A DNA stretch of 48,185 nucleotides. Origin: Desulfobulbaceae bacterium (GTDB taxonomy: Bacteria; Desulfobacterota; Desulfobulbia; Desulfobulbales; Desulfobulbaceae). The first letter of the stretch is position 1. Each line of letters starts with the position of its first letter. This document shows positions 4,295 to 4,668 of the stretch, one piece after another. The position numbers were made by a program, and so were the translations under genes. The notes beneath the pieces were generated by a model, which did not search any database, was not told where the DNA came from, and saw nothing but the letters and a program-made list of their open reading frames with translations. The stretch covers positions 1-48,185 of the forward strand of contig WFUT01000062.1 of the NCBI GenBank assembly GCA_015484845.1, given 5' to 3'.

Positions 4295-4386
4295 AATCTC
4301 GATCTTCGGGCCAGCGGCACAGCGGCGGCCTGGTGTTGCATCACAGGTAAGGAGGTGAGCAACCTTTTACCTAAATCCTGCACTTC

Positions 4387-4491
4387 GAAAATGAAGAAAA
4401 AAATTTTCTTTTGCCGTATCAGCGGACTATACGAACGTGATCGTTTTTTTCGACTCACTAATCGGGTGAAGGATTTTTTTTCTTCATTTTC
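4387..4491. repeat. Inverted repeat, first arm of the MITE-like element
   Basis: GAAAATGAAGAAAAAAA at 4387-4403 is the exact reverse complement of TTTTTTTCTTCATTTTC at 4475-4491, a 17-bp stem with a 71-base loop. Read on either strand the stem ends in a run of A or T, so it could also act as a transcription stop. Confidence 0.7.
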
Positions 4492-4503
4492 TCGCCCTTC
4501 GGG

Positions 4504-4601
4504 ATTGGCAATTTTACCGAATCTGCTTCGTTATCAAGGGCTTGAAGTATTCGTATACGTCTGCGCCCTTGATGCCTCGCATCTCCGGCAAAATTGCCAA
4601 T
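4504..4601. repeat. Long imperfect inverted repeat, second arm of the MITE-like element
   Basis: ATTGGCAATTTT (4504-4515) pairs with AAAATTGCCAAT (4590-4601). Further in, ATCAAGGGC (4533-4541) pairs with GCCCTTGAT (4565-4573). The sequence between the paired blocks is partly complementary too, giving one imperfect hairpin of almost 100 bases capped by a loop containing CGTATACG. Confidence 0.7.
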
Positions 4602-4668
4602 TGCAGGATTTAGGTTTTACAAAACTCTGAAAAAATATGAAACAGCTAAATTCACGTCGGTCCCGGGA

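Follow-up and report, generated by a model that had tools for sequence, protein, structure and literature searches.

Between the stop of an upstream gene (4669) and the start of UbiA (4294), the 48,185-nt stretch of Desulfobulbaceae DNA analysed here (the window) carries a short, strongly folded sequence, which raises the question of whether it is a structure serving this locus or a mobile element, and, if it is mobile, by what it is moved and what its fold is for.

The element upstream of UbiA and its copies

A preliminary description of the sequence had placed a MITE-like element of 247 bp at 4369–4615, with perfect 14-bp inverted ends and a possible TTTTAC duplication at both edges. Our analysis led to an element of 245 bp (4370–4614, plus strand). 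Its left terminal inverted repeat (CCTAAATCCTGCA, 4370–4382, plus strand) is identical to the ends of insertion sequences (ISs) of the IS1380 family and is matched perfectly over 13 bp by the inverted right end (4602–4614, minus strand). The inverted ends are thus perfect as described but one base shorter, since the 14th base on each side belongs to the target duplication. The edge duplication is likewise present, though as a 5-bp TTTTA (4365–4369 and 4615–4619); the sixth base of TTTTAC is coincidental, since the C on the left side is the element's own first base. Both long internal inverted repeats recognised beforehand were recovered, namely a left hairpin (4387–4491) with a perfect 17-bp stem (4387–4403/4475–4491, 100% complementary) and a right hairpin (4504–4601) with 23-bp arms (4504–4526/4579–4601, 83% complementary), which contains a 74-nt conserved core (4516–4589) common to MITEs with other ends. 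A small hairpin, CCC-TTC-GGG (4495–4503), lies between the two. In the left stem, the sequence varies among lineages, while pairing is preserved. The low GC content reported against GC-rich surroundings amounted to 42% compared with 64% for the whole window, and the folding energy of the element was -98.1 kcal/mol compared with -56.1 (sd 4.9) for shuffled sequences (z -8.6). The MITE has no coding capacity; of the listed ORFs, the only one reaching it, a frame of 417 aa, lies antisense to UbiA and extends into the element.

The host genome (G000) harbored about 90–100 copies of the element, 40 of them near-complete, with 94 left and 75 right ends; 280 end matches, compared with 3 for a reversed-pattern control, exclude chance. 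Further copies were identified in Desulfogranum marinum, Desulfocapsa, and other Desulfobulbaceae-type genomes; the two matches in MAGs named Parabeggiatoa and Bacteroidetes may reflect misbinning. A search of phages, plasmids, and viral contigs for carriage of the element resulted in no match. At the orthologous place, both same-genus relatives (G001 and G002) revealed a single TAAAA within CAGAGTTTTGTAAAAGG, i.e., the empty site, which together with the multiple copies identifies the sequence as a MITE insertion. Thus, instead of a single copy conserved in place across relatives, we found what had been proposed, an element with many copies in the host genome and its relatives, target duplications, and an empty site. 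A non-mobile host regulatory structure at this locus, for which the strong folding and the position upstream of UbiA would speak, is extremely improbable in view of the empty site in both relatives, the roughly one hundred copies, and the duplications.

Among 61 copies in the host genome with both ends, 36 displayed a perfect 5-bp duplication and 51 one with at most one mismatch, while the next 5 bp, used as a control, gave no perfect case. The target preference was TNNNA, with T in 36/36 and A in 31/36 of the perfect duplications. A 3-bp duplication, suggested by the near-constant A and T beside the ends, was rejected, since the outer bases vary jointly on both sides: deviating outer bases match (TGGTC/TGGTC, TTCTC/TTCTC, CGTAA/CGTAA), so that the duplication is 5 bp long. 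Shorter forms of about 150–155 bp without the right hairpin and stubs of 38–58 bp were also present in this genome. None of 43 copies examined was located inside a called gene, based on heuristic gene calls. A 2-kb end pair on contig G000:C198 was considered as an autonomous element and discarded, since its ends belong to separate MITE copies.

The window copy lies 54 bp past the upstream stop and, as described before, just ahead of the UbiA set, 75 bp from the UbiA start. No intrinsic terminator was detected in the element, and only one weak promoter-like match, a sigma-70-like TCGAAA-16-TATAGT in the loop of the left hairpin, directed toward UbiA (4426–4453, minus strand). From the sequence, an effect of the MITE on UbiA transcription is plausible. 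Between the upstream gene and UbiA, a 40-bp block (AATTTAG.TGTTTCATATTTCTGCAGAGTTTTGTAAAAGG, window 4615–4660; L135, L136) is conserved in three genomes and is perhaps a promoter; the insertion point of the MITE is the end of this block. In G001 (L135, G001:C78, 90–540), the interval between the conserved block and UbiA is occupied by another sequence, about 450 bp long and with strong self-complementarity (GTAAGCG..., GCAGATTCGGACTCTACGCTTACC), which is perhaps a further repeat element.

A putative IS1380-type partner

The 5-bp duplication is common to the MITE and to ISs of the IS1380 family. One of these, in the relative G046, has a size of 1674 bp, both ends exact, an ATTAA/ATTAA duplication, and an open transposase frame, and is intact and multicopy (at least six equal-score matches among those listed). 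Broken ISs were identified in D. marinum (G015; 1685 bp, TACTA/TATTA, both ends exact) and G036 (1667 bp, TAAAA/TAAAA, ends one mismatch from those of the MITE), and an order-wide search revealed, besides the IS of G046, related IS1380s in G186 and G201. The IS1380 family model scored 269 bits (cut-off 180). Transposases with CCTAAATCCTGCA ends formed one clade (support 100/99, 60–77% identity), separate from IS1380s with CCTGAATCCGTGA or CCTAAATTGAGCG ends, with some long branches elsewhere in the tree. The mobilising partner is therefore likely to be found in one clade of IS1380-family ISs with identical ends and 5-bp duplications, as judged from sequence comparison. An IS1380-family DDE transposase would recognise the CCTAAATCCTGCA ends, act on the MITE in trans, and insert it at a 5-bp TNNNA target, which would be duplicated; we infer that it is this transposase that moves the MITE. 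An earlier candidate, IS982 (AC-type ends, assumed 3-bp duplication), had no member above the cut-off in 13 genomes and was abandoned in view of an IS1380-like frame beside the ends and the duplication length of 5 bp.

A search for the IS1380 transposase (PF13701, NF033539) in the host genome (97% complete, 233 contigs) resulted in no match; either the family is probably dormant in this host, or the assembly lacks the enzyme. A partner transposase in the same genome is usual for a MITE, though not required. Beyond about 16 bp, the interior of the MITE does not resemble the ISs and thus does not represent a deleted IS.

Other elements with the same ends were seen alongside. At L080, L084, L085, and L160 (G052, G041, JANTGH010000138.1), MITEs of about 177–250 bp with CCTAAATCCTGCA ends have an unrelated interior (TTATCCGGCATTCGAACG...), so that these ends carry at least two cargoes. 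A 241-bp element at L148 (QNER01000799.1, 3899–4139), in a Candidatus Parabeggiatoa MAG, displays CCTAAATCCTGCA ends, a TAATA duplication, and an unrelated AT-rich interior.

The hairpin core and its carriers

A covariance model built on the right hairpin without the element ends matched in 73 of 251 genomes from the order, representing 33 of 69 genera, and many of these matches had no CCTAAATCCTGCA end. In a phylum-wide sample, the model of the 74-nt core matched in 34 of 395 genomes; these belong to 27 genera, and many carry several copies. In 20 diverse members the fold was retained, with 95.5% of cells paired and 45 double-sided changes, compared with 9.6 for shuffled sequences and no more than 10 with a slid partner. 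Among 97 distinct cores, 93.4% of cells were paired and 395 double-sided changes were counted, while shuffles gave 118.7 (sd 13.8) and slid partners no more than 92. Fitting of this alignment to the model biases it towards pairing, but an unfitted alignment (A4) agreed with it (100 double-sided changes compared with 30.1 in shuffles). No Rfam family matched above the gathering score. The core of the window copy also contains an exact match to the IHF site WATCAANNNNTTR (TATCAAGGGCTTG); related cores alter it and keep their pairing, so that this match is not the constraint. Two further arrangements were observed, a tandem pair of cores without recognised ends at L046 (G059:C1, 1500–1640) and an extra small palindrome (GGCAGGTAGCGTAGACTCCGAAATTT and similar) that enlarges the right hairpin at L041 and L071 (G069, D. 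marinum).

Around the cores, end pairs with duplications were sought, with 3/282 and 0/282 for the displaced-flank controls. IS1380-type carriers, flanked by 5-bp duplications that in some cases contain one mismatch, had the ends CCTAAATCCTGCA, CCTAAATTGAGCG, or CCC[AG]GATTATGCA, where CCTAAATTGAGCG also terminates an IS1380 in G051. Other carriers, of 156–159 bp, displayed GTAAGCG-type (GTAA-type) ends and 8-bp duplications; they represent nine distinct insertions, spread over five genomes (G231, G061, G253, G087, and G058), with L264 and L272 counted once as the same insertion, and eight of the nine duplications are perfect, one being 7/8. The ends of IS66 read GTAAGCG (PMC11946415), and published duplications are 5 bp long in IS1247 (IS1380) and 8 bp long in IS66 members (PMC3281130), so the putative IS66 assignment of the 8-bp carriers is based on end sequence and duplication length. 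Overall, at least four kinds of end accompany the core, three or more of them IS1380-type; some cores had no recognisable ends and may be remnants or belong to other carriers. The presence of one core in IS1380-type and apparently IS66-type carriers makes it a conserved folded module that MITEs of two unrelated transposase types have in common. That the core is simply a part of IS1380 was rejected, since it is missing from nine of nine IS1380 loci. Altogether, we are highly confident that the window element is a non-autonomous MITE moved in trans by an IS1380-family transposase, with an interior that is a folded cassette whose core is also present in IS66-type backbones.

As to what the hairpin might do, our favoured, though unproven, reading is that the core is recognised by a host factor, either as extruded DNA or as minus-strand RNA, and thereby aids persistence or tolerance. 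We lean towards selection on the fold and regard a DNA role as about as likely as an RNA role. A role as extruded or single-stranded DNA, e.g., as a host-factor or transposition-enhancing site, is a tentative but realistic possibility: pairing is near-exclusively Watson-Crick (1728 of 1875 cells; G.T 20), the internal loops are conserved (0.94 bits at unpaired compared with 1.02 bits at paired positions), and the core is found in MITEs of two transposase types, while its absence from the nine IS1380 loci argues against it. A role as minus-strand RNA in 5' untranslated regions, e.g., as a processing or stability element, is a similarly tentative, slightly less likely possibility. Left ends face gene starts in a ratio of 67:22 (p 2e-6), compared with 46:31 (not significant) for right ends, and the excess of A.C over G.T among plus-strand mismatches (63 compared with 20, or 27 compared with 11 with redundancy removed) leans weakly to minus-strand wobble; on the other hand, wobble pairs make up only about 1% on the plus and 3.4% on the minus strand, the contrast between left and right orientation is weak (Fisher p 0.04) and depends on heuristic gene calls, and Rfam holds no matching family. 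An outward promoter as the cause of this orientation bias was rejected, since the consensus TATAAT of the left loop, which reads TATAGT in the window copy, was present in only 38 of 69 copies, with conservation no higher than that of the adjacent sequence.

Covariation might also arise unselected, if imperfect palindromes were repaired by templated mutation or replication strand switching, with no function needed. The predominance of paired changes, the scarcity of wobble intermediates, and the frequent loss of the palindrome (copies of about 150 bp without the right hairpin) fit such repair, but mismatched loops should then vanish, yet they are conserved like the stems across dozens of genera and differing backbones, which makes this explanation unlikely. 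Returning to selection on the fold, we consider the prospects evenly balanced that the structured cassette is carried phylum-wide between IS1380- and IS66-type MITEs because the function of the hairpin aids spread or tolerance.

Relation to known repeats

REP/REPIN sequences, like the present element, form imperfect hairpins, occur in large numbers, and spread through bacterial genomes; they are tied to tyrosine transposases. To our knowledge, they have no DDE-type ends and no target duplications, unlike the present MITE. The IS1380 family itself (e.g., IS1247) resembles the MITE in its ends starting with CC and its 5-bp duplication (PMC3281130), and the partners have a size of about 1.67 kb; the MITE differs in lacking a transposase and in its unrelated interior. 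Correia/NEMIS, ERIC, and other bacterial MITEs are likewise small, AT-rich, and intergenic, with inverted ends, a duplication, stable stem-loops, and many copies (PMC10969869, PMC2229807), but differ from the present MITE in their ends and partner. CIR repeats of Caulobacter/Brucella, compared by description, also show two hairpin arms and a phylogenetically conserved motif, but contain a GANTC methylation site with no terminal inverted repeat listed (PMC2229807). MITEPye1 of Paracoccus yeei was likewise assigned to an IS family by its ends and is able to fold, but has an IS1182 partner and only 1–3 copies per chromosome (PMC11578231). A review of bacterial MITEs names neither IS66 nor IS1380, and our text searches, which covered sources outside the subscription literature and ISfinder, revealed no earlier account of an IS1380 MITE or of one hairpin common to MITEs of two IS families. 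The MITE itself is thus of a familiar sort; the new aspect is the covarying core common to MITEs of two transposase types.

MITEs are usually viewed as decay products of insertion sequences, which only their ends hold together. An internal hairpin kept by compensating changes over dozens of genera suggests instead a cargo under its own selection, and with it the role of a MITE's hairpin becomes testable.
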